A program made the translations under genes and the position numbers. A stretch of DNA of 64,000 nt, taken from assembly GCA_027923505.1 (NCBI GenBank), contig BROI01000002.1, forward strand, positions 620,001-684,000, written 5' to 3'. Position 1 is the first letter of the stretch. Each line of letters begins with the position of its first letter. The notes beneath the pieces are model-generated. The model saw only the letters and a list, made by a program, of their open reading frames with translations, was not told the DNA's origin and did no database searches. Positions 5,876 through 39,494 of the stretch are shown here, piece by piece. The stretch comes from Mayamaea pseudoterrestris. Taxonomy: Eukaryota > Bacillariophyta > Bacillariophyceae > Sellaphorales > Sellaphoraceae.

Positions 5876-8800
5876 GCTGGGCCATAAGTTGGTGAGTTGC
5901 ACCTCAGCATCCATCACCATGTCTGTCACAGTGAGACTGAGCAGATCCAACAACTTGTTGGATCTGCTAGCGGTGCACCTCAAGTGGCAATTGAGATTTC
6001 CTAAAGGGTCTGCAGACCCCATAATACAACCAATATGGACTTGAACATTGATTGGGACTCATAGACTTGTCCATTTGGGCGTAGAGCCATCACCATGCCC
6101 TGAGACTCCGCACATTCAACCAATGGTTGAATGTGCCAGCCCTGCTCCCTTTTTGGCTGCAGGGATCATCAGCATTGCCCGCTGAGCCCTCCAATTTCTT
6201 TCAAATCATGTTTGTTGTCAATGATGGGCCATAAGTTGGTGAGTTGCACCTCAGCATCCATCACCATGTATGCCACAGTGAGACTGAGCAGATCCAACAA
6301 CTTGTTGGATCTGCTAGCGGTGCACCTCAAGTGGCAATTGAGACTTCCAAAATGGCCTGCAGACCCCATAATACAACCAATATGGATTTGAATGTTGATT
6401 GGGACTCATAGACTTGTCCATTTGGGCGTAGAGCCATCACCATGCCCTGAGACTCCGCACATTCAACCAATGGTTGAATGTGCCAGCCCTGCTCCCTTTT
6501 TGGCTGCAGGGATCATCAGCATTGCCCGCTGAGCCCTCCAATTTCTTTCAAATCATGTTTGTTGTCAATGATGGGCCATAAGTTGGTCAGTTGCACCTCA
6601 GCATCCATCACCATGTATGCCACAGTGAGACTGAGCAGATTCAACAACTTGTTGGATCTGCTAGCGGTGCACCTCAAGTGGCAAGTGAGACTTCCAAAAT
6701 GGCCTGCAGACCCCATAATACAACCAATATGGACTTGAACATTGATTGGGACTCATAGACTTGTCCATTTGGGCGTGGAAGCCATCACCATGCCCTGAGA
6801 CTCCGCACATTCAACCAATGGTTGAATGTGCCAGCCCTGCTCCCTTTTTGGCTGCAGGGATCATCAGCATTGCCCGCTGAGCCCTCCAATTTCTTTCAAA
6901 TCATGTTTGTTGTCAATGCTGGGCCATAAGTTGGTGAGTTGCACCTCAGCATCCATCACCATGTATGCCACAGTGAGACTGAGCAGATCCAACAACTTGT
7001 TGGATCTGCTAACGGTGCACCTCAAGTGGCAATTGAACCTTCCAAAATGGTCTGAAGACCCCATAATACAACCCGTATGGACTTGAACAATGATTGGGAC
7101 TCAAAGACTTGTCCATTTGGGCAGCCATCACTTTGCCCTGAGACTCCGCACATTCAACCACTGGTTGAATGTGCCAGCCCTGCTCCCTTTTTTGCTGCAG
7201 GGATCATTAGCATTGCCCGCTGAGCCCTCCAATTTCTTTCAAATCATGTTTGTTGTCAATGCTGGGCCATAAGTTGGTGAGTTGCACCTCAGCATCCATC
7301 ACCATGTATGTCACAGTGAGACTGAGCAGATCCAACAACTTGTTGGATCTGCTAGCGGTGCACCTCAAGTGGCAATTGAGACTTCCAAAATGGTCCGCAG
7401 ACCCCAAAATTCATTCAATATGGACTTGAACAATAAATGGGACTTCAAGACATGTCCATTTGGGCTGGGCCATAAGTTGGTGAGTTGCACCTCAGCATCC
7501 ATCACCATGTCTGTCACAGTGAGACTGAGCAGATCCAACAACTTGTTGGATCTGCTAGCGGTGCACCTCAAGTGGCAATTGAGATTTCCTAAAGGGTCTG
7601 CAGACCCCATAATACAACCAATATGGACTTGAACATTGATTGGGACTCATAGACTTGTCCATTTGGGCGTAGAGCCATCACCATGCCCTGAGACTCCGCA
7701 CATTCAACCAATGGTTGAATGTGCCAGCCCTGCTCCCTTTTTGGCTGCAGGGATCATCAGCATTGCCCGCTGAGCCCTCCAATTTCTTTCAAATCATGTT
7801 TGTTGTCAATGATGGGCCATAAGTTGGTGAGTTGCACCTCAGCATCCATCACCATGTATGCCACAGTGAGACTGAGCAGATCCAACAACTTGTTGGATCT
7901 GCTAGCGGTGCACCTCAAGTGGCAATTGAGACTTCCAAAATGGCCTGCAGACCCCATAATACAACCAATATGGATTTGAATGTTGATTGGGACTCATAGA
8001 CTTGTCCATTTGGGCGTAGAGCCATCACCATGCCCTGAGACTCCGCACATTCAACCAATGGTTGAATGTGCCAGCCCTGCTCCCTTTTTGGCTGCAGGGA
8101 TCATCAGCATTGCCCGCTGAGCCCTCCAATTTCTTTCAAATCATGTTTGTTGTCAATGATGGGCCATAAGTTGGTCAGTTGCACCTCAGCATCCATCACC
8201 ATGTATGCCACAGTGAGACTGAGCAGATTCAACAACTTGTTGGATCTGCTAGCGGTGCACCTCAAGTGGCAAGTGAGACTTCCAAAATGGCCTGCAGACC
8301 CCATAATACAACCAATATGGACTTGAACATTGATTGGGACTCATAGACTTGTCCATTTGGGCGTAGAGCCATCACCATGCCCTGAGACTCCGCACATTCA
8401 ACCAATGGTTGAATGTGCCAGCCCTGCTCCCTTTTTGGCTGCAGGGATCATCAGCATTGCCCGCTGAGCCCTCCAATTTCTTTCAAATCATGTTTGTTGT
8501 CAATGCTGGGCCATAAGTTGGTGAGTTGCACCTCAGCATCCATCACCATGTATGCCACAGTGAGACTGAGCAGATCCAACAACTTGTTGGATCTGCTAAC
8601 GGTGCACCTCAAGTGGCAATTGAACCTTCCAAAATGGTCTGAAGACCCCATAATACAACCCGTATGGACTTGAACAATGATTGGGACTCAAAGACTTGTC
8701 CATTTGGGCAGCCATCACTTTGCCCTGAGACTCCGCACATTCAACCACTGGTTGAATGTGCCAGCCCTGCTCCCTTTTTTGCTGCAGGGATCATTAGCAT

Positions 8801-9051
8801 TGCCCGCTGAGCCCTCCAATTTCTTTCAAATCATGTTTGTTGTCAATGCTGGGCCATAAGTTGGTGAGTTGCACCTCAGCATCCATCACCATGTATGTCA
8901 CAGTGAGACTGAGCAGATCCAACAACTTGTTGGATCTGCTAGCGGTGCACCTCAAGTGGCAATTGAGACTTCCAAAATTGCCAGCAGACCCCAAAATTCA
9001 TTCAATATGGACTTGAACAATAAATGGGACTTCAAGACATGTCCATTTGGG
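5876..9051. repeat. 1,588-bp higher-order tandem duplication in satellite A
   Basis: Positions 5876-7463 and 7464-9051 are near-identical copies of a block of about 4.6 monomers. Rare variants recur in the same order at an offset of 1587-1588 bp: the changed hairpin base near 6640 and 8228, the CTAACGG variant near 7010 and 8598, and the shortened GGGCAGCCATCACTTTG stretch near 7117 and 8705. The junction near 7464 joins two different points of the monomer that share TGGGC, which points to a microhomology-mediated or unequal exchange. Confidence 0.9.
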
Positions 9052-9058
9052 TGTGGGC

Positions 9059-9314
9059 GCCATCACCATGCCCTGAGACTCTGCACGTTCAACCAATGGT
9101 TGAATGTGCCAGCCCTGCTCCCTTTTGTCTGCAGGGATCATCAGCATTGACCGCTGAGCCCTCCAATTTCTAGAAAATCATGTTTGGCCATCACCATGCC
9201 CTGAGACTCTGCACGTTCAACCAATGGTTGAATGTGCCAGCCCTGCTCCCTTTTGTCTGCAGGGATCATCAGCATTGACCGCTGAGCCCTCCAATTTCTA
9301 TAAAATCATGTTTG
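9059..9314. repeat. 128-bp tandem duplication inside a satellite A unit
   Basis: The stretch starting GCCATCACCATGCCCTGAG at 9059 restarts at 9187 after a truncated CATGTTTG. Both copies share private variants (CTGCACG, TTTTGTCTGCAGG, ATTGACCGCTG), so the duplication is recent compared with divergence among units. Confidence 0.88.
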
Positions 9315-12300
9315 TTGTCAATGCTGGGCCATAAGTTGGTCCGTTGCACCTCAGCATCCATCACCATGTCTGTCACAGTGAGACTGAGCAGATCCAACAA
9401 CTTGTTGGATCTGCTAGCGGTGCACCTCAAGTGGCAATTGAGACTTCCAAAATGGTCTGCAGACCCCATAATACAAACAATATGGACTTGAACAATGATT
9501 GGGACTCATAGACTTGTCCATTTGGGCGTAGAGCCATCACCATGCCCTGAGACTCCGCACATTCAACCAATGGTTGAATGTGCCAGCCCTGCTCCCTTTT
9601 TGCCTGCAAAGATCATCAGCATTGCCCGCTGAGCCCTCCAATCTCTTTCAAATCATGTTTGTTGTCAATGATGGGCCATGAGTTGGTCCCTTGCACCTCA
9701 GCATCCATCACCATGTCTGTCACAGTGAGACTAAGCAGATCCAACAACTTGTTGGATCTGCTAGCGGTGCACCTCAAGTGGCAATTGAGACTTCCAAAAT
9801 GGTCCGCAGACCCCATAATACATTCAATATGGACTTGAACAATGATTGGGACTCATAGACTTGTCCATTTGGGCGTGGAGCCATCACCATGCCCTGAGAC
9901 TCCGCACATTCAACCAATGGTTGAATGTGCCAGCCCTGCTCCCTTTTTGGCTGCAGGGATCATCCGGATTGCCCGCTGAGCCCTCCAATCTCTTTCAAAT
10001 CATGTTTGTTGTCAATGATGGGCCATAAGTTGGTCCGTTGCACCTCAGCATCCATCACCATGTCTGTCACAGTGAGACTGAGCAGATCCAACAACTTGTT
10101 GGATCTGCTAGCGGTGCACCTCAAGTGGCAATTGAACCTTCCAAAATGGTCTGTAGACCACATAATACAACCAGTACGGACTTGAACAATGATTGGGACT
10201 CAAAGACTTGTCCATTTGGGCGTAGAGCCATCACCTTGCCCTGAGACTGCGCACATTCAATTTATTAGTTGAATGTGCCAGCCCTGCTCCCTTTTTGGCT
10301 GCAGGGATCATCAGCATTGCCCGCTGAGCCCTCCAATTTCTTTCAAATCATGTTTGTTGTCAATGATGGGCCATAAGTTGGTGAGTTGCACCTCAGCATC
10401 CATCACCATGTCTGTCACAGTGAGACTGAGCAGATCCAACAACTTGTTGGATCTGCTAGCGGCGCACCTCAAGTGGCAATTGAACCTACAAAATGGCCTG
10501 CAGACCCCATAATACAACCAATATGGATTTGAATGTTGATTGGGACTCATAGACTTGTCCATTTGGGCGTAGAGCCATCACCATGCCCTGAGACTCCGCA
10601 CATTCAACCAATGGTTGAATGTGCCAGCCCTGCTCCCTTTTTGGCTGCAAAGATCATCAGCATTGCCCGCTGAGCCCTCCAATTTCTTTCAAATCATGTT
10701 TGTTGTCAATGCTGGGCCATAAGTTGGTGAGTTGCACCTCAGCATCCATCACCATGTCTGTCACAGTGAGACTGAACAGATCCAACAAATTGTTGGATCT
10801 GTTAGCGATGCACCTCAAGTGGCAAGTGAGACTTCCAAAATTGCCAGCAGACCCCAAAATACATTCAATATGGACTTGAACAATAAATGGGACTTAACGA
10901 CATGTCCATTTGGGTGTGGGCGCCATCACCATGCCCTGAGACTCCGCACATTCAACCAATGGTTGAATGTGCCAGCCCTGCTCCCTTTTTGGCTGCAAAG
11001 ATCATCAGCATTGCCCACTGAGCCCTCCAATTTCTTTCAAATCATGTTTGTTGTCAATGCTGGGCCATAAGTTGGTGAGTTGCACCTCAGCATCCATCAC
11101 CATGTCTGTCACAGTGAGACTGAGCAGATCCAACAACTTGTTGGATCTGCTAGCGGTGCACCTCAAGTGGCAATTGAGACTTCCAAAATGGTCTGCAGAC
11201 CCCATAATACATTCAATAAGGACTTGAACAATGATTGGGACTCATAGACTTGTCCATTTGGGCGTAGAGCCATCACCATGCCCTGAGACTCCGCACATTC
11301 AACCAATGGTTGAATGTGCCAGCCCTGCTCCCTTTTTGGCTGCAGGGATCATCAGCATTGCCCACTGAGCCCTCCAATTTCTTTCAAATCATGTTTGTTG
11401 TCAATGATGGGCCATAAGTTGGTAAGTTGCACCTCAGCATCATCACCATGTATGCCACAGTGAGACTGAGCAGATCCAACAACTTGTTGGATCTGCTAGC
11501 GTTGGATCTGCTAGTGGCGCATCTCAAGTGGCAATTGAACCTTCCAAAATGACCTGCAGACCCCAAAATACAACCAAAATGGACTTGAACACTGATTGGA
11601 ACACATAGATTTGTCCGTTTGGGGTGGAAGCCATCATCATGCCCTGAGACTCCGCACATTCAACCAATGGTTGAATGTGCCAGCCCTGCTACCTTTTTGG
11701 CTGCAAAGATCATCAGCATTGCCCGCTGAGCCCTCCAATTTCTTTCAAATCATGCTTTTTGTCAATGCTGGGCCATAAGTTGGTGAGTTGCACCTCAGCA
11801 TCCATCACCATGTCTGTCACAGTGAGACTGAGCAGATCCAACAACTTGTTGGATCTGCTAGCGGTGCACCTCAAGTGGCAAGGGAAACTTCCAAAATGGC
11901 CTGCAGACCCCATAATACAACCGATATGGACTTGAACATTGATTGGGACTCATAGACTTGTCCATTTGGGCGTAGAGCCATCACCATGCCCTGAGACTCC
12001 GCACATTCAACCAATGGTTGAATGTGCCAGCCCTGCTCCCTTTTTGGCTGCAGGGATCATCCGGATTGCCCGCTGAGCCCTCCAATTTCTTTCAAATCAT
12101 GTTTGTTGTCAATGCTGGGCCATAAGTTGGTGAGTTGCACCTCAGCATCCATCACCATGTCTGTCACAGTGAGACTGAGCAGATCCAACAACTTGTTGGA
12201 TCTGCTAGCGGTGCACCTCAAGTGGCAATTGAGACTTCCAAAATGGTCTGCAGACCCCATAATACATCCAATATGGACTTGAACAATTTTTGAGACTCAT

Positions 12301-13011
12301 AGGCTTGTCCATTTGGGCGTAGAGCCATCACCATGCCCTGGACTCCGCCACCACGGTCTCCCTTTTTGGCTGCAGGGATCATCCGCATTGCCCGCTGGGC
12401 CCTAAATTTCTTTCAAATCATGTTTGTTGTCAATGCTGGGCCATAAGTTGGTGAGTTGCACCTCAGCATCCATCACCATGTCTGTCACAGTGGACAGCAG
12501 ACTCAACAACTTGTTGGGCCCTCATGACATAAGCTGAAACACGCGAACCAAGGGGCTCATAGACTTGTCCATTGGGCGTGGGCCATCACCATGCCCTGAG
12601 ACTCCACACATTCAACCGTTGGTTGAATGTGCCAGCCCTGCTCCCTTTTTGGCTGCAGGGATCATCAGCATTGCCTGCTGAGCCCTCTAATTTCTTTTAA
12701 ACCATGTTTGTTGTCAATGATGGGCCATAAGTTGGTGAGTTGCACCTCAGCATCCATCACCATGTCTGTCACAGTGAGACGAGAATTGAACTGGATCTGC
12801 TAGCGGTTGCACACCGAAAACTTCCAAAATGGTCCGAGACCCCATAATACATTCAATATGGACTTGGACAATGGTTGGGACTCATAGACTTGTCCATTTG
12901 GGCGTGGAGCCATCACCATACCCTGAGACTCCGCACATTCAGCCAATGGTTGAATGTCCCAGCCCTCCCTTTTTGGCTGCAAGATAAATTGCAGACTCAT
13001 CAGCAGTTGCC

Positions 13012-13852
13012 CCGTGTAGCCCTCCCATAGTCGCAGGAATCAACTATGGATGATTTTATGCACCAATCTCACTGCAAGCATGTCCACAAGCATTGTCAAA
13101 CAGGATTGATGGAGCAAGACTACAATGGGTGGTAGGTTAAAGGCCATGCACGGTAGCTCCATGAACTGCCCTCCCATACCATAGCTGCTTGGAATCAGCT
13201 ATGGATTTTTTTTGCACCAGAAACACTGCAAGCATATTTCCAAGAATAGCCAAATAGGATTGATGGAGCAAGACTACAATTGGGGGTTGGTTTGGAAGGC
13301 CATGCACTGTACCGTAACACCATGGAGATGGCTACTGTGTGGGTGTTTGAATTGCCCTCCCGTAACGTAGCTGCTTGGAATCAGCTATGGATGATTTTTA
13401 AGCACCAATCTCACCGCAACCATGTCCCTAAGCATAGCCAAACAGGATTGATTGAGCAAGACTACACGTGGGGGTAGATTTGGAAGGCAATGCACTGTAG
13501 CACCATGGAGCTGGTACCTGTGTAAATGTCTGAATGGCCCTCCCATACCGTAGCTGCTTGGAATCAGCTATGAAGGATTTTTATGCACCAATCTCACTGC
13601 AAGGTTGTCCACAAGCATTGTCAAACAGGATTGATGGAACAAGACTACAATTGGGGGTTGGTTTGAAGGCCGCCTGTAGCACCATGGAGCTGGTTCCTGT
13701 GTAGATGTCTGAATTGCCCTCACATACCGTAGCTGCTTGGAATTGGCTACAGAGGATTTTTATGCACCAATCTCACCGCAAGTATGTCCCCAAGCAGGCC
13801 TACACCATGGCTTGGTCCACACGATGGTCATAGCCACACCCCAAGTTGTGGA
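13012..13852. repeat. Satellite family B block 1 (about 180-bp repeat) with a start of family C
   Basis: Four to five copies of a second repeat, marked by GGATTGATGGAGCAAGAC at 13,104, 13,258, 13,446 and 13,629 (spacing 154-188 bp). Each unit has a short hairpin, TAGCTG and CAGCTA around eight bases. From 13,036 on the block is a diverged copy of 18,345-19,188 and ends with the same first bases of family C. It then breaks abruptly into family A at 13,852/13,853. One unit has lost about 24 bp relative to its counterpart. Confidence 0.9.
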
Positions 13853-16800
13853 CCATAAGTTGGTGAGTTGCACCTCAGCATCCATCACCATGTCTGTCAC
13901 AGTGAGACTGAGCAGATCCAACAACTTGTTGGATCTGCTAGCGGTGCACCTCAAGTGGCAATTGAGACTTCCAAAATGGTCTGCAGACCCCATAATACAA
14001 CCAGTATGGACTTGAACAATGATTGGGACTCATAGACTTGTCCATTTGGGTGTAGAGCCATCACCATGCCCTGAGACTCCGCTCATTCAACGAATGGTTG
14101 GATGTGCCAGCCCTGCTCCCATTTTGGCTGCAGGGATCATCAGCATTGCCCACTGAGCCCTCCAATTTCTTTCAAATCATGTTTGTTGTCAATGATGTAC
14201 CAAAAGTTGGTGAGTTGCACCTCAGCATCATCACCATGTCTGTCACAGTGAGTCTGAGCAGATCCAACAACTTGTTGGATCTGCTAGCGGTGCACCTCAA
14301 GTGGCAATTGAGACTTCCAAAATGGTCTGCAGACCCCATAATACAAACAATATGGACCGACCCCATAATAACCCCAGTGGACTATGAACAACTTGGATTT
14401 GGGCACTTCAGTAGAACCTTAAAGCTGCAATCCATTTGGGCGTGGAGCCATCACCATGCCCTGAGACTCCGCACATTCAACCAATGGTTGAATGTGCCAG
14501 CCCTGCTCCCCTTTTGGCTGCAGGGATCATCCGGATTGCCCGCTGAGCCCTCCAATTTCTTTTAAATCATGTTTGTTGTCAATGCTGGGCCATAAGTTGG
14601 TCCGTTGCACCTCAGCATCCATCACCATGTCTGTCACAGTGAGACTGAGCAGATCCAACAACTTGTTGGATCTGCTAGCGGTGCACCTCAAGTGGCAATT
14701 GAGACTTCCAAAATGGTCTGCAAACCCCATAATACATTCAGTATGGAGTTGAACAATGATTGGGACTCATAGACTTGTCCATTTGGGCGTAGAGCCATCA
14801 CCATGCCCTGAGACTCCGCACATTCAACCAATGGTTGAATGTGCCAGCCCTGCTCCCTTTTTGGCTGCAAAGATCATCCGGATTGCCCGCTGAGCCCTCC
14901 AATTTCTTTCAAATCATGTTTGTTGTCAATGCTGGACCATAAGTTGGTGAGTTGCACCTAAGCATCCATCACCATGTCTGTCACAGTGAGACTGAGCAGA
15001 TCCAACAACTTGTTGGATCTGCTAGCGGTGCACCTCAAGTGGCAATTGAGATTTCCTAAAGGGTCTGCAGACCCCATAATACATTCAATATGGACTTGAA
15101 CAATGATTGGGACTCATAGACTTGCCCATTTGGGCGTGGAGCCATCACCATGCCCTGAGACTCCGCACATTCAACCAATGGTTGAATGTGCCAGCCCTGC
15201 TCCCTTTTTGGCTGCAAAGATCATCAGCATTGCCCGCTGAGCCCTCCAATTTCTTTCAAATCATGTTTGTTGTCAATGATGGGCCATAAGTTGGTCCCTT
15301 GCACCTCAGCATCCATCACCATGTCTGTCACAGTGAACTGAGCAGATCCAACAACTTGTTGGATCTGCTACCGGTGCACCTCAAGTGGCAATTGAGACTT
15401 CCAAAATGGTCTGAAGACCACATAATACATTCAATATGGACTTGAACAATGATTGGGACTCATAGACTTGTCCATTTGGGTGTAGAGCCATCACCATGCC
15501 CTGAGACTCCGCTCATTCAACCAATGGTTGGATGTACCAGCCCTGCTCCCATTTTGGTTGCAGGGATCATCAGCATTGCCCGCTGAGCCCTCCAATTTCT
15601 TTCAAACCATGTTTGTTGTCAATGATGGGCAATAAGTTGGTCCGTTGCACCTCAGCATCTGTCACCATGTCTGTCACTGTGAGACTGAGCAGATCCAACA
15701 ACTTGTTGGATCTGCTAGCGGTGCACCTCAAGTGGCAATTGAACCTTCCAAAATGGCCTGCAGACCCCATAATACATCCCGTATGGACTTGAACAATGAT
15801 TGGGACTCATAGACTTGTCCATTTGGGCGTAGATCCATCACCATGCCCTGAGACTCCGCACATTCAACCAATGGTTGAATGTGCCAGCCCTGCTCCCTTT
15901 TTGGCTGCAACGATCGTCAGCATTGCCCGCTGAGCCCTCCAATTTCTTTCAAATCATGTTTGTTGTCAATGCTGGGCCATAAGTTGGTGAGTTGCACCTC
16001 AGCACCCATCACCATGTCTGTCACAGTGAGACTGAGCAGATCCAACAACTTGTTGGATCTGCTAGCGGTGCACCTCAAGTGGCAATTGAACCTTCCAAAA
16101 TGGTCTGAAGACCCCATAATACATCCAATATGGACTTGAACAATGATTGGGACTCATAGACTTGTCCATTTGGGTGTAGAGCCATCACCATGCCCTGAGA
16201 CTCCGCACATTCAACCAATGGTTGAATGTGCCAGCCCTGCTCCCATTTTGGCTGCAAAGATAATCAGCATTGCCCACTGAGCCCTCCAATTTCTTTCAAA
16301 TCATGTTTGTTGTCAATGCTGGGCCATAAGTTGATGAGTTGCACCTCAGCATCCATCACCATGTCTGTCACAGTGAGACTGAGCAGATCCAACAACTTGT
16401 TGGATTTGCTAGCGGTGCACCTCAAGTGGCAATTGAGACTTCCAAAATGGTCTGCAGACCCCATAATACATTCAATATGGACTTGAACAATGATTGGGAC
16501 TCATAGACTTGTCCATTTGGGCGTAGATCCATCACCATGCCCTGAGACTCCACACATTCAACCCAGCCCTGCTCCCTTTTTGGCTGCAAAGATCATTAGC
16601 ATTGCCCACTGAGCCCTCCAGTTTCTTTCAAATCATGTTTGTTGTCAATGATGGGCCATAAATTGGTGAGTTGCACCTCAGCATCCATCACCATGTATGC
16701 CACAGTGAGACTGAGCAGATCCAACAACTTCCAACAACTTGTTGGATCTGCTAGCGTTGGATCTGCTAGCGGTGCACCTCAAGTGGCAATTGAGACCTCC

Positions 16801-18063
16801 AAAATGGTCTGCAAACCCCATAATACATTCAGTTAGGACTTGAACAATGATTGGGACTCATAGACTTGTCCATTTGGGCGTAGAGCCATCACCATGCCCT
16901 GAGACTCCGCACATTCAACCAATGGTTGAATGTGCCTGTCCTGCTCCCTTTTTGGCTGCAAAGATCATCAGCATTGCCCGCTGAGCCCTCCAATTTCTTT
17001 CAAATCATGTTTGTTGTCAATGCTGGGCCATAAGTTGGTGAGTTGCACCTCAGCACCCATCACCATGTCTGTCACAGTGAGACTGAGCAGATCCAACAAC
17101 TTGTTGGATCTGCTAGCGGTGCACCTCAAGTGGCAATTGAACCTTCCAAAATGGCCTGCAGACCCCATAATACAACCAACATTTGGATTTGAATGTTGAT
17201 TGGGACTCATAGACTTGTCCATTTGGGCGTAGAGCCATCACCATGCCCTGAGACTCCGCACATTCAACCAATGGTTGAATGTGCCAGTCCTGCTCCCTTT
17301 TTGGCTGCAAAGATCATCATCATTGCCCGCTGAGCCCTCCAATTTCTTTCAAATCATGTTTGTTGTCAATGATGGGCCATAAGTTGGTGAGTTGCACCTC
17401 AGCATCCATCACCATGTCTGTCACAGTGAGACTGAGCAGATCCAACAACTTGTTTGATCTACTAGCGGTGCACCTCAAGTGGCAATTGAGACTTCCAAAA
17501 TGGTCTGCAGACCCCATAATACAACCAGTATGGACTTGAACAATGATTGAGTTTCATAGACTTGTCCATTTGGGCATAGAGCCATCACCATGCCCTGAGA
17601 CTCCGCACATTCAACCAATCTGCAAAGATCATCAGCATTGCCCGCTGAGCCCTCCAATTTGTTTCAAATCATGTATGTTGTCAATGATGGGCCATAAGTT
17701 GGTGAGTTGCACCTCAGCATCCATCACCATGTATGCCACAGTGCAAAAATGGCCTGCAGACCCCATAATACATTCAATATGGACTTGAACAATGATTGGG
17801 ACTCATAGACTTGTCCAATTGGGCGTAGAGCCATCTCCATAGCCTGAGACTCCACACATTCAACCAATGGTTGAATGTGCCAGCCCTGCTCCCATTTTGG
17901 CTGCAGGTATCTTGGCTGCAGGGATCATCAGCATTGCCTGCTGAGCCCTCCAATTTCTTTCAAATCATGTATGTTGTCAATGATGGGCCATAAGCTGGTC
18001 AGTTGCACCTCAGCATCCATCACCATGTCTGCCACAGTGAGATTGAACAGATCTAACAACTTG
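13853..18063. repeat. Satellite family A, block 2
   Basis: About 12 further 347-bp units in the same orientation as block 1, with the same hairpins and the same variant classes. The unit near 16,730 carries both the 15-bp duplication and a partial duplication of the hairpin arm. The units near 17,620 and 17,740 have internal deletions. The block breaks off inside a hairpin arm at about 18,063, where family B begins. Confidence 0.95.
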
Positions 18064-19132
18064 GTATTGATGGAGCAAGAAAACAATTGGGGTAGGCTGA
18101 ATGCCATGCACTGTAGCACCATGGAGCTGGTTCCTGTGTGGATGTCTGCACTGCCCTCCCATACCGTAGCTGCTAGGAATCAGCTTTGGATCATTTTTAT
18201 GCACGATTGTCCCCAAGCGTAGCCAAGCAGGATTGATGGAGCAAGACTACAATTAGGGGTAGATTTGGAAGGCCATGCACTGTAGCACCATGGAGCTGGC
18301 TCCTGTGTGGGTGTCTGAATTGCCCTCCCATACCGTAGCTGCTTGGAATCAACTATGGATGATTTTATGCACCAATCTCACTGCAAGCATGTCCACAAGC
18401 ATTGTCAAACAGGATTGATGGAGCAAGACTACAATGGGTGGTAGGTTTAAAAGGCCATGCACGGTAGCACCATAGTTCCAGTGGGGATGTCTGAACTGCC
18501 CTCCCATACCGTAGCTGCTTGGAATCAGCTATGGATTTTTTTTTAGCACCAGAAACACTGCAAGCATATTTCCAAGCATAGCCAAATAGGATTGATGGAG
18601 CAAGACTACAATTGGGGGTTGGTTTGGAAGGCCATGCACTGTACCGTACCACCATGGAGCTGGCTCCTGTGTGGGTGTCTGAATTGCCCTCCCGTAACGT
18701 AGCTGCTTGGAATCAGCTATGGATGATTTTTAAGCACCAATCTCACCGCAACCATGTCCCTAAGCATAGCCAAACAGGATTGATTGAGCAAGACTACACG
18801 TGGGGGTAGATTTGGAAGGCAATGCACTGTAGCACCATGGAGCTGGTACCTGTGTAAATGTCTGAATGGCCCTCCCATACCGTAGCTGCTTGGAATCAGC
18901 TATGAAGGATTTTTATGCACCAATCTCACTGCAAGGTTGTCCACAAGCATTGTCAAACAGGATTGATGGAACAAGACTACAATTGGGGGTTGGTTTGGAA
19001 GGCCATGCACTGTAGCACCATGGAGCTGGTTCCTGTGTAGATGTCTGAATTGCCCTCACATACCGTAGCTGCTTGGAATTGGCTACAGAGGATTTTTATG
19101 CACCAATCTCACCGCAAGTATGTCCCCAAGCA
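18064..19132. repeat. Satellite family B block 2 (about 180-bp repeat)
   Basis: Six units marked by GATTGATGGAGCAAGAC or a variant at 18,064, 18,231, 18,413, 18,590, 18,778 and 18,961 (spacings 167-188 bp). Each has the TAGCTG-N8-CAGCTA hairpin context and a GCACCATGGAGCTGG segment. The block passes directly into family C at about 19,133. Short open frames exist but are not conserved as coding units between copies. Confidence 0.93.
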
Positions 19133-20072
19133 GGCCTACACCATGGCTTGGTCCACACGATGGTCATAGCCACACCCCAAGTTGTGGATTAATACCCCCA
19201 GGGTGCCTCATGCCTGGCCACTCAACAACCCAATGATTCAGGAAAAACATGTCCAGGGTATGTCATTATCATGTGCATAGTCTCAAACGGTGAAAAAACA
19301 ACTGCCTTGATGCCTACACCATGGAATGGTCTACACGGTGGGTCATGGTCAAGACCTTAAGTTATGGATTCATACCACCAGGATGCCCCATGCCCTGGCC
19401 ACTCAACGACCCAAAGAGTCAGGCAAAACATATACAGAATGTGCCATTGACATGTGCATAGTTTCAAATGGTGCAAAAAGGACTGCCTGGAGGCCTACAC
19501 CATAGATTTGGTCTGCACAACAGGTCATGGTCACAGACTAGGTAGTTATGGATTCATACCACTAGGATGCCCCATGTTCTGGCCACTCAACGAACCAATG
19601 AATCAGGCAAAAACTATCCAGGTGTGCCATTGACATGCACATAGTCTCAAATGGTGCAAAAAGGACTGCCTGGAGGCCTACACCATGGATTGGTCTACAC
19701 AATGGGTCACGGCCAACACCCCAAGTTATGGATTCATACCACTAGGATGCCCCATGCCCTGGCCACTCAACAACCCAATGAGACAGGCAAAACATGTTCC
19801 GGGTGTGCCATTGTCATGAGCACAGTTTCAAATGGTGCAAAACCAACTGCCTGGAGGCCTACACCATACATCGGTCAACACCTCAAGTTATGGATTCATA
19901 CCACTAGGATGCCCCATGCCCTGACCACTCAACGACCCAAAGAGTCAGGCAAAACATATCCAGAATGTGCCATTGACATGTGAATAATCTCCAATGGAGC
20001 AAAAAGGACTGACTTTGCATGTAAGCCGACACCATGGAATGGTCTACATGATAGGTATGTCCAACACCCCAC
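19133..20072. repeat. Satellite family C (about 180-bp repeat)
   Basis: About five units marked by AGGATGCCCCATGCCCTGG or variants at 19,201, 19,381, 19,565, 19,745 and 19,907 (spacings 162-184 bp). Each contains GGCCTACACCATGGA, GTTATGGATTCATACC and CAAATGGTGCAAAAAGGAC. The last copy decays after about 20,030. This is the gene-proximal edge of the satellite domain. Confidence 0.9.
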
Positions 20073-23255: not shown

Positions 23256-26200
23256 CTAAACTATTTGTATGTCGCTGCCCATCATTTCTTTTGGCAATGC
23301 GTACTCATCTTCCTTCAGGTCAAGTGATCCGATATTGTCAAGGTTGTCGGAAGCATCGTCCGATTCCGAGTCGTCGTCGCCCGATGCGTCAGACTGAGAT
23401 GATGAATGCCGGGCAAACTCTGACGCGTGGTTGAACTCGCCGTCCTTTGGTATGAAGATAGGATTGTTTTCTTCCTTTTCGGCATTTCTTGACCTGTAGT
23501 AGCGCCACAGGAAATACGCTGATATTATCATGGCCAGCGCGCTCAGGACAAGCCCGGCAACGAGTCCACCCTTTTTGACGGTACCAGTACAAGTGTCAAC
23601 CATGTCATTGCTACCAATCGCAGAACAATCAATTCCCATACCCGATAAGACGCTGCTGTAGGCAGCAATGACGACTGCCGCACCCTGCGGTAGAGCTTTG
23701 CCAGAAATCAGGTCGAAACTGTCGGCAATTGTATTAGCTGCTTCTTCGTCAACATCGTGAATAAGCGGAAGTACCGCTTGACTATACACGTAAGCCTGAG
23801 CAAGTAGTTGTTGTTGCCTGGCACCTGAGGTTTTTTGCAGGAGCAATGCTGTGCTGATGGCGCCTTGAATCAAGGGAACGGGCAGGAGGAAGGCGACTCG
23901 ACTCGCCGACTCCTGCAAATCATTGCAGCTTTCTGTCAGGGCAGCTCCGCGACCAGTGAATAGCTGGAGCACAATCATATCATTAAACTCAGAACTGCCG
24001 CGGACTTGGTGAGAGCAAGTGTCAAATTCCTCGCATTGCTGCTTTGAAAGCGCCCATAGTAACCTTCCCTCCGTTGACCCAGCTTCGGACGTACCCTCCA
24101 TGGATCCAATAATCCAAGACGCGGCCTTGTCCCATGCGGCGCCTGCCTTTTCGCTATTGCCGTCAATGCAAGCTTCAACCGCTTCTTGTACTCCCATTAA
24201 TGCTCCCATGTAAAGAACCATGAATGAAGCGATGCCAGTCAGGAGTGTCCGACGCTCCTCGGCCTCTAGGCCATTGTTGGCCATAAAGGCGAATCGAACA
24301 ACAGTATCGGCGTACGAACTGTCGCCTTGGTTATACCGTTTAAACGACTCGAACTGGGGGACTCTGGAACGATCCATGGATGTTGCCAAACTCTGGAGAC
24401 TGAGCGCCGTCCTATCGCTCGAAGTTTCCAGTTCCACGTGCTTGCCGTACTCGTAAAGTTGCTCGGCTGCCTCGTATGCTTCCATTCGCATGAGAATGTC
24501 AAGTTCTTGAATGTCCAAGTCAATCTTTGCAAAGTTTGTAATGTCTGTCGCGGCCTTGTAGCCAGCGATGGCAAAAGTCTCTTCCGACTTGGCGCATGAG
24601 ACGCTCGTCTCCGTCTTGTGAAGTCCAACCTCGTTACAAGCAATATTGAAACAAGGGAAAGTTTTCCTAATGGCGTCTACCAGCAAGTCGACCTCAACCT
24701 CGCTGTGAGAATAATCAAGCAACTTTGAACGCAGAAATTCAAACTGCGTTGGGCTGCAAGCAGCAACAAGTGGAACATAGGCATGGGCATAAACTCGTAT
24801 ACGGGCACGGTCTCCAACTCGCAAGTTGTGAATGAGGCCTTGAGCGTTAACAACAAGCATCTGAGCTATAATCTTGTTGACGATATGGAGTAGTCGCTTG
24901 ATTGTTGCATCTTCGGCGCATGCACTTGGTAACGACAGCTCAAACTTCGCCTGATGAAATAAGCGGAGGATGTTTGTATTAACAGTCGACTGCTTGCCTT
25001 GCATAGTGTTGAAGTACCCCCCGAGTTCTTCGGCAAGGGCATAGAAAAGATGACCTTTCTTTGTGTTGTCTGGATCAGCGAGCTCGCCATCGCCTATCCA
25101 ATAGGCGACCGCGCCATCGACTGAGTGCACGGCTTCGTCGTCAGTAAACATTCTATTCTTGCAGCTCGCGACGGTTAGATACAAATCATTTGCTAGCTCC
25201 ATCCATAAATTGAGAACAACAGCAGCCTCAGCGGCCACTGGCGATTTCAGAGGTGCGCCATCTGTCAATGCTTCTTGTACAATTGTGTTGGCGTACTGTC
25301 CGGCCTGCTCTCCCATGTAAAGACCTTGACTATCACGAAGTGCATAAACAGTAACCTGGTAGAGTGGATTATTCCTCATCGTTGTACTCGCATTTGTCGA
25401 AAACGAAGCAAAACTCCTCAGGTCGACAGCGACACCTTGGGCGTCGAAAATTGGTGAATTCTCGCCTTCGTCGTAAATGATTTTTGCCAGGGCCTCACGA
25501 CCAACTACCAACGCATCTTGCATCGCCTGAATGTCTAGAGCGATGTTGGCCTTGTCTTTGACATACGTAGACGTTGTGTATAAATCTTCTCCCAAATCTG
25601 TCGGAGTGTCGCGCTTAGGTTCAGTGGCTGACGTGCCACACGCTGAAAGACCAGTTGACGCCGGAACGCCGATAACGTTGCAGCTGATATTCATGGCATC
25701 ATATGCTCCCAGAAAAGCATTGAGCACATATTCGACCCCGTCAATAACCGGTTTACCATCGAGATGAAACTCCATGTTGCTTTGAACGATTGCAGCTGAA
25801 GTCTGATTAGCACTGTTCACGAAAGGTAGAATCGAGTCCGCTAGGATTGAACCAGAGGAAAGAGTCATATTCATAGATTGAGCAGGCAGCTTTTCGTTGA
25901 GCGCAGCAAATAACAGCGTTCCTTGGATAAGTGGAACCTGCATCGTCGCCAAGAGGTCCTGCAGGATTTCCTCAGCTGCGTCGCAATTGTTGGATACCAT
26001 AGCTCGCTTCATGTCTCGAAGTGACACAAGGACGAAATCATTCACAGCAGAATCAGTTCCTTCCTCGCACTTTCCGAACGTCCGGCACATGTCTTTGCTC
26101 AGAGCAAACATCAGTTTTCCACTTCCATCAGGGTCGCCTCCAGGATCAGGTCCTTCAATTGAACCGGCGAACAATGCTGCAGCTTGGTCAACGAGAGTGA

Positions 26201-29200
26201 TGTCGTTTTGGCTTGACTTGCATAGCGTTATGGAGGATCGAAGCTTCGTAGCAATTTGCATGGACGTGACTGATGTCTGGAAAGACCTCGTCACTGCTTC
26301 GGAGAGTTGCCGACGGGAAGCGCTCGCGAATATACCATTATCGCTCTGCCAAGTCGTCATGGCAGAGAGTATTAAAGAATTGGTGTAGTTGGCGGTTTGG
26401 AAGTAATTTACATAAGAATTGAACCAGTCGCCCGCGTCGCTTCTGTCGCCTGCCGACAACGACTGTAATGTGATTGGTGTGCCATCCGCATTAAGGCTGT
26501 TCCTTCCGTTCACGTAGTAATCATAGGCAAGCTTGTAGGATTTGGTGCGCATGAAAACATCAATCTGAGTAACGTCTAGATCGATTCTCGACAATTCAGA
26601 GACATCAGTATCGGTTGCATATCCGGCTATCATAGATGCGCCCTGGAAACGTTCAATTTGCGAGCAGATTGCAGCAACCATATTCTGAAGCTCTGGGCGC
26701 GAGTTTGATGTGTCGCCAAGGTCCGCGCATGTGATTCGTAGGCAGCTAAGAACCTTGCCAAATCTCAGAATTACGTCATTGTTAATGAGCATCGAACGAT
26801 CAAAATCGAGAAATAGTGCATCTCGTAGATTTTCATATGTTCCCATGTCACATCCAGTAGCTTGCGGGATGAATGACAACGCATACAACTCGACATGGTT
26901 GCGATTGTTGTCGCTGATTGACGCAAGAAGCAACTGAAGAAGTATTTTTGATATTGACCGAACAATTTCATCCACTTTTTTCGTGAGCAAAACGGAAGTA
27001 CTGTTTATAGATCCACAGTCAACTGCGAGCTCTTGCGCATCGTTAAAGAGTTGCATGAGCTCAGAATTTATTGGGGCTTCCTTCTCGTTGTTTCCATAGC
27101 TTCGAAATGCGTGTTGCGCTTGCGCATACAGCATCCAGCCACTATTAAAACTTCCCTCCCCTTGTTCTTGGCCGATCCACAAGGCCACTGCCGAGTCAAT
27201 CATGTCAGTAGCATTTAGTTGCTTTGTGCAGCTTCTGACGGATTCATATAAACGATGCGCAATCATCATATAGCTATTCATGACAATGCTTGTATCTGCA
27301 GCAAGCTGTGGGCTGTTTCCTTTATCGGGATTCAGGGCAAGCTCAACCACCGTGTCCGCAAATGCAAAGTCTTGCTCCTGGGCCGGTTTATCGAAATCTT
27401 CATCGTCGTAGAACGCCACGAGATAGAAATTGTAAAGAGGATCATCTGCCATGAGTTCGGCTGCTTTTCTGCTAAAATCAGCCAGACTCTCCACGCCGAT
27501 GCCGCCGTATAGCCCGTTTGTTGCATACTTGGATGCACTTGAATATATTGCGGCTGCGGCTTCCACGCTGTCAGCAGTTGCAATGTCCCGAATATCCATT
27601 GAGAATTGAGAATCTCCTTCAGCAATTCGTTGATTCAAGAAGTTGTAACGTCCCCAAGCGATGCCTTTTGGGTCTGTTGGAGGAACGACAACGGGCGGTT
27701 CGGTCGCTTCAGATGAAGGTGTCGGAGCAGAAGTATCTACAGTGTCTGGTTGACCGACTGTCGGATCATCTTCACAAACACCGTACGATCCTCCAGCCAT
27801 GTTAAGTTTGCCAATGCGTCGACAATCCGTATCCATAGTTGTCAGCGCAGCACGTACCGCATCAAAGACCGCCGACACGTTCGGAGTGACTAGTACATCG
27901 GAGTTACTTTCTATCGTTGCCGCCGCCGTTGTGCTCGCTCTGTTAATAGTCGGAAGGATTGCTCTCGAATAGGCATAGAGCGCACCAGTACTTCCTTCCA
28001 TTGCGCCGTCTGTCGCAGCTGCAGTGTGATAGAGTGTCGCTTGGATAAGTGGGATCATCAAGTATGGCTTAATATTCTGCTGTATGATACTGAGCGCATC
28101 TTGGCAAGCGCCGACGGCGAGTGTATTTCGTCCAAATTCAAAGTAGTTCAGCAGCGCTTCATTAACAGCCGAGTCCATTGGAACGCATACATTAAAATTG
28201 TCGCAAAGGGAAATAGCGAGACCGAAGAGCAAACTACCCGTGTCCGCCAGCGACTCAGTTTCTCCTTCCATCGATCCAATGTAGAATGCAGCCCCGCCGT
28301 CCCAATAGGAGAGCGCAGACTCTTCGGAGCTGCTTGGATTCTCGCAAACAGAAATGGCGGACTCAAACTCGGAGGCCACTGAAAAGTACATGACGATCCC
28401 TTCCAACACCCCTGCCACGACATTGACTCGGTCTTCGACTGACATTGCATCAAAAGGCGACTGAAGATCCAACACATTCATTATCAAATTCTCCGCAAAG
28501 TTCTCATCGGGAAAATACAGCTTGAATCGCTCATACTCAACACTCGTCACGAGGCTAAAGTTGTTGGTCGCTAGCTCCTTAATGCTGAAATCGGTGTTCC
28601 ATCCGTAGTTGTAGTAGTCTCGCACCGCGTTGTACGCTTCGAGTCGCATAAACATGCGGATATGGCGAAGATCGCGATCAATATATGCCTTGCGATCAAC
28701 GTCTGTGGATGGAGCGTAGCTAGCAAGCGCCGTAATTTTATGGTCGGTGCACTCTGGGATTCGTCCACTTTGATACTCGCCAATGTCCGAGCACAAGACA
28801 TGCAAGCAGCTGTAAGCCTTTTGCAGCGTAGTCTTAATCTCGGCGCGACTGTCTGCAGTCACGGAATTCTGCACTGTCAGCTTCATTAGTGTTTCATACG
28901 CGTACGTGTCGCAAGCGGCAATCTGGGGCAGTATGGCCAGCGAGTAAAGCTCGGTAAAGTCGGAATCCGCTGTCACTTCAAGGTGGTGAAGAAACATTTG
29001 GACCAAGACAATGTTTGTTGACTTGATCAAAGACTTGACTTTGGCTCGAACCTCCTTGTAGCCATCTACTCCGGTCTTGCAAATGCCATTGTCAATGTCT
29101 TGCTTAATGCCGACAAATGTTTCCAGTACCAGCTTGTTAATTAACGCTTCGCCAGAGCTCCCATCTTGATCAAAATTCGTGCCAGATCGCTCGCCAAGAT

Positions 29201-29903
29201 TGTAAAGCATAAATCCTTGTACATTGTTTCCTCGAGGCTGGCCTTCGCCAATGTACAGTGCTGCTGCTTGGTCAAGAAATGCAATCATTTGAGAAGCGTC
29301 CCCATTCGCTTCGCAAACTTGCAGCATCTTATAAAAGGTTCCCCAGTAGCTCATGACAACATTCATAACTAGCGCTGCATCGCCTTGAATGCGCGTTCGG
29401 TTCAAGGAAAACAAGTCGTTGACCAATGTATTGCCGTATTCTTCAATGGGCGATCCATCAAAGTAACCAGTCTCGTCGCCTTCCTCTTTCATACCCAGCT
29501 CGTGAAAGGCATATCGGTAAACATTATACAGTGGAAATTCCGAGTACTGCGACGAGTTGCTGCTCAGACCAGCCAATGTCAAGGGCAGGGCATTTCTTCC
29601 ATTATCGAAAATGTTTCGCTTCTGCGAAAGATCCGTGCTCACGCGCATGTCGCGAATGTCGTAGGAAAGGTTCAGTCTGATGCAACCAACACAAATGAAA
29701 CAGCATCATGTTAGTAAATCGTAGCATTCTTATCAATGCACCTACACCGAGATGTAGAACTTTAGAACGTACAATCTGGAAACATCAGTCGTCGTCACAT
29801 ATCCAAAGGATCCGTCGGTGAGTGACGCTCTCGCCGTGGAGGCGAGCAGCAGCGCCAGTTGCAGCAAACGCCAATGGCTTCCAAAGATTGCCATGGTAGA
29901 CAT
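23256..29903 (-). CDS. Giant secreted type I membrane protein, three tandem two-domain repeats; possible FEA1/phytotransferrin-like
   Basis: Complement(join(23256..29676, 29773..29903)); 2,183 aa. The intron of 96 bp has donor GTACGT and acceptor CAG. An N-terminal signal peptide (core LLQLALLLASTARA) is followed by six related domains of about 330 residues arranged as three pairs. The first member of each pair has YIGEG, WIGQE or WIGDG (near 29,250, 27,170, 25,095). The second has GSMEG, GSIEG or GSMEG (near 28,270, 26,160, 24,100) followed by a Leu/Phe-Ala-rich stretch and conserved Cys. Pairs are joined by a Pro/Thr-rich linker (about residues 680-713) and similar spacers. A single membrane helix at about 2080-2102 precedes a Ser/Asp-rich acidic tail of about 77 residues. 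The architecture (signal peptide, repeats, one C-terminal helix) and the GS-EG motif recall FEA1 (low-iron-inducible periplasmic protein) and the diatom ISIP2A phytotransferrin. That match is from memory and moderate. The start could also be the second Met at 29,894. Confidence 0.75.
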
Positions 29904-30214
29904 TGACTGCTGCGTGTGTATTTGATAGCTTTGGTACGCACACCAAGGTCCTCCAAAAGGCGCGTCGCTGCGTTCGGTTGAGTCGAAAATTGGTTTGCGA
30001 GGCTTGGAATGCGTTGAGCTCGGCTGGCTTGTTTGAGAGCGCCAGCCGTGCCACGTGAAGAAGCACAGAAGCCCACTGTTGATTACTTGATACCGCTTAC
30101 TAACTCGCGCGTTCACCCAATTTCCAAGGGCAAGGTTTCAGACAGCGCAACTACCTTGACGTATACATCGTCATTGTCTCTCTCAAATATAGCTTCCAGT
30201 AGTGTAAACAAAAT
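29904..30214. promoter_or_regulatory. Divergent intergenic region (giant membrane protein / eL37)
   Basis: About 310 bp separate the ATG of the giant protein (minus) from the ATG of eL37 (plus), so both promoters must lie here or in the transcribed leaders. I see no clear TATA box. Confidence 0.5.
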
Positions 30215-37182: not shown

Positions 37183-39494
37183 ATGAAAGCCTTCAACGTC
37201 ATTCGCAAGAACAAGCACAAGGCCGAACGAGGTGCCTCCAGCTCGCCCAAGGCGGCCGAGGCGGCTGCCATCTTGACGCCAGTCGTAACGGCTGCCGTGG
37301 ATGAAGGTGCTCCTCAGTCTCCATTGAAAGAAGACGCATCTCCTCCATCGCTCGTCTCGTCGGTGCCCGCGTCTGTTGCCAGCAGCAACATTAAAGTATT
37401 CATTGACTCCAAGGAGCTCCAGGAAACACTTTCCTCCAAATCGTTGCCACAAATCATTGGCGCCATTGACCAAGGCACTTCGTCGACGCGATTCGTCTTG
37501 GTGTCGCAGCATGGACGCATTCTCGCATCGGCGCAGCTTGAAACGCGTCAATACTACCCGCAACCCGGTTGGCACGAGCAAGATCCAAGTGAAATTATTG
37601 ATTCGGTCATGCAGTGCGTCAAAACACTCGAGTCGAATCCGGAACTGCAGCCACTACTAGCGAAACATGGTGTCAAGGCCATTGGCATTACCAATCAGCG
37701 CGAAACGACGCTGGTGTGGAACCGCGTGACAGGCTTGCCCTACTACAAGGCCATTGTGTGGGACGACTTGCGAACAACAGAGATTGCGCAAACGATTCGA
37801 CGCCACGTGGCTTCCAAGGACTACAGTCAAAACAAGCAGCAGCAAAATGGTAACTCGCATTCGAGCAGCTGCAGTATGACGCGCAAGACTGGCTTGCTCA
37901 TCGCGTCGTACTTTTCGGGCACCAAGGTGCGATGGCTGGTTGAAAATGTCCCCGAGCTAGCCAAGGATTTGCAGGAACATCCCGAGCAAGTTTGCTTTGG
38001 AACTGTGGATGTTTGGCTGGCATACCAATTGACTGGAAAGGAGGTTGTTGTTGCCGCTGCTGCTGCTGCTGCTGCTACCACCAATGGCAATGGAAATGGA
38101 GATGCAACGTCGCACCAATTGCACAAGGGAGGATTGTTTGTCACGGACGCAACCAACGCCAGTCGATGGCTCTTTATGGACCTCATTACGCAAACCTGGG
38201 ACGATCAGTTGATCGACACAGTCGTTGGTAGCAGCAACGTTAAGGTTCCAATTTCGGCCTTGCCGGAAATTCATTCGAGCAGTCACACGTATGGAACTTG
38301 TTCGTCGGTGGAAGGTATACCAAAGATGCTGCACAATGTTCCGCTGTCAGCCATTCTGGGGGATCAACAGGCGGCACTCTTTGGACAAACTTGCTTCCTG
38401 CCGGGTGAAGCAAAGGTACGCTCAAGACGAACGCGGGGGCTAGCTTTATCGTCACTCTATCGGAAATGACACTCACTCTTGTTCTCCTTCCATTTGCGCA
38501 GAACACGTATGGTACAGGTTTGTTTCTCATGATGGTCACGGGCGACCAGCCAGTGACTAGTACGCACGGCTTGCTCACGACGATTGGGTACAAGATAGGA
38601 AAAAAGACAACGTATGCGCTCGAAGGTAGCGTCGCTCACTCGGGATCCACCATTCAGTGGCTGCGTGATCAACTACAAATCATTGACAAGGCATCCGATA
38701 CTGAAAGTTTGGCCAAGCCGCAGAATGATGGCATGTATTTTGTCCCAGCATTTGCGGGATTGTTTGCTCCGTACTGGCGACCCGACGCGCGGGCCTGCAT
38801 CGTTGGCATGACGTCGTCGCATGACAAGGGACACTTGTGTCGTGCCACGCTGGAAGCGATTGCCTATCAAACCAAGGATGTGTTCGACGCCATTGAGAAG
38901 GACTCCAACGTGTCTCTCAAGTCGCTTCGAGTTGATGGGGGAGGAACGGCCAATAATCTGCTCATGCAGTTTCAATCGGACATTATCAACGTACCAGTGG
39001 AGTGTCCCGTTGTGTTGGAGACAACTGCCATGGGTACAGCGTTTGCAGCTGGTCTGGCAGTGGGTGTGTGGAAGGATCTCGATCAGATCAAAGCACTTTG
39101 GTCAGTGGCCAAGACATTTGAGCCACAAATGTCGGAACAAGTGCGCTTAAAAAACTTGCGAGGTTGGGACAGAGCAGTCTCAAAGAGTCTTGGCTGGGTC
39201 GGAGATAACAATCAACGCAAAAGATTGAGCCGAATGGAGAGCGAGCTTGTGGAAGCCGATTATGAGGACGCCTTTTCGGATGAGGACGATCTTCAGAGAT
39301 CCATTGAAAGTCTCGACACAAAACGTGTCGAAGTTGTCGCGAGACCGACTGAAACCCGCATGGCGTGGCACATTTTCTCTCATATCTTGTTGACCGCGGC
39401 GGCGGTTGGAGCGGGCTACTTGCTGGGTGAAAGACGACCTGGATTGTTAGCGCCAGGTCGCTTCAAGCTACCGGCGTTTCAACTACGCAAGTAG
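37183..39494 (+). CDS. glpK: Glycerol kinase with C-terminal membrane anchor
   Basis: Join(37183..38415, 38502..39494); 741 aa. Phosphorylates glycerol to glycerol-3-phosphate (FGGY family). The 86-bp intron has donor GTACGC and acceptor GCGCAG and splits no codon (GEAK/NTYGTG). Seen: nucleotide-binding start GAIDQGTSSTRF, ITNQRETTLVWNR, WLAYQLTG, GDQQAALFGQ, FAGLFAPYWRP and VDGGGTANNLLMQ. It is longer than the usual ~500 residues: about 90 extra N-terminal residues rich in Ala/Ser, two low-complexity insertions (NKQQQNGNSHSSSCS and a poly-Ala run), and an acidic spacer leading to a C-terminal hydrophobic helix (IFSHILLTAAAVGAGYLLG) with a basic end. Animal glycerol kinases have a similar C-terminal helix for mitochondrial outer-membrane attachment; the same role is inferred here. 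Confidence 0.93.
38053..38077. repeat. (GCT)n microsatellite in glycerol kinase
   Basis: Run of GCT/GCC triplets coding for poly-Ala in a surface insertion of glycerol kinase, preceding an Asn-Gly run. Confidence 0.85.

Follow-up and report, generated by a model that had tools for sequence, protein, structure and literature searches.

A six-domain, phytotransferrin-like protein of the FEA1/ISIP2A family with two alternating domain types in Mayamaea pseudoterrestris

We have found in the genome of Mayamaea pseudoterrestris a giant gene whose product is made of six consecutive domains of two alternating types, in the order A1 B1 A2 B2 A3 B3 (328–355 residues each, approximately 330, when cut at the repeat boundaries). 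The proposal of a preliminary description that this protein belongs to the FEA1/ISIP2A (phytotransferrin-like) family seems mostly right, since it matches the Fea1 profile, aligns with a characterized FEA1 protein better than shuffled sequences do and has short phytotransferrin-like paralogs that match its last domain. It appears to be a multi-domain member of the family for which an iron function is plausible. The gene lies on the minus strand of the window (the whole 64-kb stretch of DNA that was analyzed), from 29903 (ATG) to 23256 (end of the stop codon), exactly within the limits given in the preliminary description. It consists of two exons that encode 2183 residues, and the joined frame is free of internal stops (Table 1).

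Table 1. Features of the giant gene and its product in the 64-kb window. Residue numbers refer to the encoded protein.
Feature	Positions	Strand	Remarks
Exon 1	29773..29903	-	ATG at 29903; signal-peptide-like segment (residues 1-27, by eye); start of domain A1
Intron	29677..29772	-	96 nt, GT-AG (GTACGT...CATCAG), phase 2; predicted from frame continuity and splice sites
Exon 2	23256..29676	-	remaining coding sequence through the stop codon, one long exon
Domain A1	28737..29816	-	residues 30-357; the span takes in the intron
Domain B1	27738..28736	-	residues 358-690; GSMEG motif at 28263-28277
B1/A2 linker	27663..27737	-	residues 691-715; rich in Pro, Thr, Ser and Val
Domain A2	26658..27662	-	residues 716-1050
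Domain B2	25593..26657	-	residues 1051-1405; GSIEG motif at 26151-26165
Domain A3	24582..25592	-	residues 1406-1742
Domain B3	23583..24581	-	residues 1743-2075; GSMEG motif at 24093-24107; sole domain over the Fea1 cut-off alone; model all-helical
Membrane helix	23508..23570	-	residues 2080-2100
Acidic tail	23259..23507	-	residues 2101-2183 (83 residues), presumed cytoplasmic; NPIF tetrapeptide at 2115-2118
CACGTG palindrome	30052..30057		149-154 bases upstream of the start codon; core only of the low-iron motif ACACGTGC; weak lead, found post hoc

The six domains can all be aligned with each other. Scores of phmmer were 60–89 bits between A domains, 85–114 bits between B domains and from -0.2 to 31 bits between an A and a B domain, while the maximum between different domains in the shuffle control (20 shuffles, all six domains) was 6.4 bits. 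The comparison of the A with the B profile gave a probability of 98.8%, and the identity of the other domains to B3 was 19–29%. These results agree with the three tandem copies of a two-domain unit described before. Actually, one of the two series of landmarks given there (28,270, 26,160 and 24,100) corresponds to the GS-[MI]-EG motifs of B1, B2 and B3, and the other (29,250, 27,170 and 25,095) to the equivalent, degenerate sites of A1, A2 and A3. The GS-EG motif followed by a cysteine that had been named as a mark of the family is found in half of the domains, namely the three B domains, and is missing from the three A domains. In the tree, A1–A3 formed a clade with support 100/99 when the paralog of contig C14 (see below) was left out and 100/100 when it was included. 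The corresponding values for B1–B3 were 99/98 and 92/91, the latter being below the mark of firm support of the program, which also warns of long branches such as those found here. A single A-B unit amplified to three copies would be the simplest history of the protein.

The evidence for family membership comes mainly from profile searches. Against the Pfam family Fea1 (PF07692, low iron-inducible periplasmic protein), the profile by which the preliminary description had proposed to check its assignment, the whole protein scored 52.5 bits (E 5.3e-14, four stretches), well over the curated cut-off of 25 bits. The Pfam scan of the protein found no other domain at its cut-off. When the domains were scanned singly, only B3 passed the threshold (33.9 bits); A3 and B2 matched below it, and A1, B1 and A2 gave no PF07692 match at E values up to 10, so that these last three would be Fea1 domains by virtue of their homology to the other domains of the protein. 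We have also aligned by hhalign the profile of the six domains with FEA1 of Chlamydomonas reinhardtii, using the sequence given in PMC8098128. The alignment, over 186 columns in the N-terminal two thirds, had a score of 48 and a probability of 86.5%, with scores up to 18.8 in 10 shuffles. The same sequence matched weakly to the profiles built from A domains (probability 20.4%), B domains (1.9%) or short paralogs (2.9%) only.

The general layout is the one of FEA1/ISIP2A-type phytotransferrins, i.e., a secretion signal, a single C-terminal membrane helix and a short tail, as judged from hydropathy and from reading the sequence. Read by eye, the N terminus has one Arg, a Leu-rich core and then Ala-Arg-Ala|Ser, fitting a signal peptidase site. 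The most hydrophobic stretch of 19 residues is located at 2082-2100 (mean 2.37), and the runners-up fall inside domain B3 (1.91). The tail contains 21 acidic and 8 basic residues, and its NPIF tetrapeptide resembles an NPxY/F endocytosis signal. A signal-peptide-like start, a single membrane helix and an acidic tail are all present, as in the preliminary description, and the protein is probably located at the cell surface.

Using B3 as query against its own genome (30.6 Mb, 41 contigs), we found four further loci, one on contig C3, two adjoining on C8 (C8a and C8b) and one on C14, with E values between 5.5e-9 and 1.3e-11. The longer C8 protein recovered the same set of four loci and the giant gene; counts from such genome searches are lower bounds. 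The two C8 genes lie on the same strand at positions 1831-5657 of the locus L010 (G000:C8:641000-650000), apparently a tandem duplication. In the same genome the PF07692 search recovered the giant gene and none of the short paralogs, and of five paralog pieces submitted to Pfam a single one matched Fea1, its 24.9 bits falling marginally short of the cut-off. All four paralogs share a YTGSLE motif (GSLE in every case). By eye, a signal-like start is present in C8b, and an end that resembles a membrane helix in C8b, C3 and C8a. Besides, C8b and C3, the two paralog rows that cover the N-terminal half of the domain, contain inside it approximately 110 residues that are absent from the giant protein. 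Based on their homology to B3 and on this layout, which is in general that of ISIP2A, we infer that the four short paralogs are phytotransferrin-like.

The comparison with the short paralogs brings out a clear difference between the A and B domains. Each of the six domains contains six cysteines, and four of the positions are generally common to all of them (with two small alignment offsets, in A3 and B3). The remaining two differ by type: all three A domains have a pair at alignment columns 505/543 and lack the one at 396/402, while all three B domains have the pair at 396/402 and lack the one at 505/543. Both pairs are found in three of the four short paralogs; in C14, the exception, the B-type pair is missing, and A-type residues seem to be present in its downstream piece. 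This loss of cysteines in pairs suggests that each of the two pairs forms a disulfide, which would join Cys299 to Cys334 in A1 and Cys535 to Cys541 in B1, and the equivalent residues in the other domains. Residues Tyr1785, Tyr1825, Ser1902, Glu1904 and Pro1978 (B3 numbering) are among the positions where all B domains and all filled paralog rows have the same residue, the columns of Tyr1785 and Tyr1825 being filled in only two and three of the four rows, respectively. At 1825 the three A domains have Ala, and at 1902 they have Glu, Gln or Asp, with Ser missing from all of them. The contrast at 1785 (Phe, Ala and Tyr in the A domains) and at 1904 (Gln, Gln and Glu) is only partial, because A3 retains both the Tyr and the Glu. 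Since the B domains keep these residues in common with the short paralogs, they are better candidates than the A domains for a putative metal site.

We have also predicted the fold of B3. The model, built from an alignment of six rows, is all-helical, with no strand of three or more residues (pLDDT 80.2, pTM 0.84). Compared with the structures in the PDB it gave no significant match, only low Z values. Sequence searches of solved structures found no match for the giant protein or for the C8 short paralog; with the FEA1 sequence a single match appeared (E 0.061), which we took as chance. Transferrins and periplasmic binding proteins are built of alpha/beta lobes. The predicted all-helical fold of B3, with no significant counterpart in the PDB, therefore suggests that "transferrin-like" probably refers to function rather than fold.

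Putting these data together, we consider it probable, although far from certain, that the giant protein is a phytotransferrin-like protein that captures iron outside the cell. It would be secreted via the endoplasmic reticulum and anchored in the plasma membrane by its single helix, displaying outside the cell six helical domains of the Fea1 type as three A-B units. Each of the three B domains would most likely bind ferric iron, so that one molecule could hold several ions. The A domains, which would have kept the fold and have lost part of the residue set, are more likely to be spacers or lobes with a lower affinity or a regulatory role. Once loaded, the protein would be endocytosed through its tail. 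That the protein would be a multivalent binder of ferric iron at the cell surface is the most likely function by analogy, because its relatives bind iron. Ot-Fea1 of Ostreococcus tauri, with two Fea1 domains, is described as iron-loaded (PMC4855317), and ISIP2a of Phaeodactylum tricornutum is reported to bind ferric iron, concentrate it at the surface and be endocytosed (PMC7676907, PMC7966952, PMC7972479).

The same domains could also belong to a surface protein that has kept the Fea1 fold and no longer serves iron, its domains having been put to another use in a scaffold, adhesin-like or of the cell wall, in which length and number of repeats are what matters. The strong divergence of the domains (19–29% identity to B3) and the loss of part of the common residue set from the A domains would be in line with this, and the handling of iron could be left to the short Fea1-like relatives encoded in the same genome. 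In Thalassiosira oceanica the transcripts of ISIP2 and of the eight-copy ISIP2x8 were unchanged after iron addition in one 2023 study; for ISIP2 this contrasts with earlier reports, and for ISIP2x8 it would fit a scaffold. However, the GS-EG motif and the residues common with the short paralogs are kept in all three B domains, suggesting a retained function, and no other Pfam domain was found at its cut-off. We regard this scaffold role as rather unlikely. A multivalent binder of another metal or anion (e.g., zinc, or something carbonate-linked) on the Fea1 fold seems to us improbable. No particular metal is specified by the residues that the B domains have in common with the paralogs, and levels of Ot-Fea1 are reported to increase under zinc as well as iron deficiency (PMC4855317), but the characterized relatives bind iron and nothing found here speaks positively for another ligand. 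Finally, a chance repeat, an assembly error or a pseudogene, for which we found no evidence, is hardly credible, given the intact frame of 2183 codons, the six cysteines per domain, similarities far above those of shuffles and copies so diverged (again 19–29% identity to B3) that an assembly duplication could not have produced them.

We looked for signs of an iron response around the genes. The complete published low-iron promoter motif ACACGTGC does not occur in the window (0 found, 2.14 expected). Its CACGTG core is rarer there than expected from dinucleotide shuffles (5 found, 16.75 expected), and one of these copies is the one upstream of the giant gene (Table 1). The core is absent from L010 (2.5 expected) and L012 (2.7 expected), two stretches in which three of the four paralog loci lie. 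In L011, with the C3 locus, there are 3 copies where 2.57 were expected; the nearest lies at a distance of approximately 1.3 kb from the C3 match, which has no copy closer than 250 bases.

Proteins with several Fea1 domains were known before. According to Lelandais et al. (2016; PMC4855317), Fea1 domains occur in algae in even numbers that go from 2 to 10, a range that includes the six found here. An eight-copy ISIP2-like protein of a diatom, ISIP2x8 of T. oceanica, appears in a list of domain duplications among genes that respond to low iron (Lommer et al., 2012; PMC3491386). The same authors proposed that duplicated domains would lead to a higher density of exposed iron-binding domains (PMC3491386). 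The giant protein is thus not as unusually large for its family as the preliminary description had it. Compared by their descriptions, ISIP2x8 has eight copies and the giant protein six, and ISIP2A of P. tricornutum, which contains PF07692, is located at the cell surface and has an endocytosis motif in its C-terminus (PMC7676907, PMC7966952, PMC7972479), is given a single, C-terminal Fea1 domain (PMC4855317). FEA1 of C. reinhardtii is also a single domain, of approximately 340 residues, i.e., the length of one domain of the giant protein; it is described as periplasmic, and its sequence as given there lacks the GS-EG motif (Juniar et al., 2021; PMC8098128). Ot-Fea1 shares with the giant protein the signal peptide, the tandem Fea1 domains and the C-terminal membrane helix, and differs by having two Fea1 domains and an N-terminus that, by its description, bears no relation to Fea1 (PMC4855317). 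It also has three Ftr1-like motifs (PMC4855317), whereas motifs of this kind (R/K-E/D-x-x-E) are not enriched in the giant protein (1 found, 1.67 expected). What is new is the six-domain case with the A/B detail; in the literature on multi-domain Fea1 proteins that we examined we have not met a division into two types with complementary cysteine pairs. Outside eukaryotes, viral contigs were scanned twice and contigs of prokaryote genomes once, and no relative was confirmed by tblastn. The queries were the short paralogs (a single protein in one of the viral scans, the alignment of the four in the other two scans) rather than the domains of the giant protein, whose alignment contains no sufficiently conserved stretch. 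Three weak matches of Enterococcus phages to B3 (E 0.6–0.7, 14–15% of B3) were taken as chance.

Some other features of the window and the genome can be mentioned. The GC content along the window is 47–51%. A long satellite array with a unit of 347 bases extends from 1110 to 17619, reported by the repeat finder as three adjoining rows, and arrays with units of 181–183 bases are located at 13162-13796 and 18208-19881. The 347-base repeat had 486 matches in the genome, on at least 14 contigs among the matches listed, and as it is found at so many places outside the window it could be a satellite of centromeres or a dispersed one. The N- and C-terminal halves of an FGGY carbohydrate kinase are found at 37183-39494 in two frames with a four-base overlap, which are probably parts of a single gene that contains an intron or changes frame. 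At G000:C1:2970661-2974680, three tandem matches to silicon transporters fall in one open frame of 1445 amino acids, apparently another multi-copy transport-protein fusion of this genome. The silicon transporters and the light-harvesting genes of the genome are those of an ochrophyte alga that uses silica, most likely a diatom. One of its FCP proteins has strong matches among PDB chains, the best being 7vd6 (247 bits), which is clearly not identical to it; another one gave weaker matches.

Iron limits growth across much of the ocean. Phytotransferrins are reviewed as an important route of iron into marine algae (among PMC7676907, PMC7966952 and PMC7972479). The alternation of A and B domains in a single protein offers natural material to find out, by comparing the two types, which residues of Fea1 hold iron. 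It bears also on why the numbers of Fea1 domains are even, something that a division into two types with complementary cysteine pairs could explain. In the same way, the all-helical prediction for B3 touches the question of whether phytotransferrins and transferrins have a common ancestry or only do the same job. As a tentative idea, possible but doubtful at present, the A-B pair might work as a true functional unit, with an iron-binding fold that is helical and has no relation to transferrin, in which the B lobes would carry the metal site and the short-range cysteine pair, and the A lobes, devoid of both and keeping the other pair, would serve for gating or spacing. If this were true, it would account for the even numbers of Fea1 domains, and animal and algal "transferrins" would be convergent at the level of the fold.
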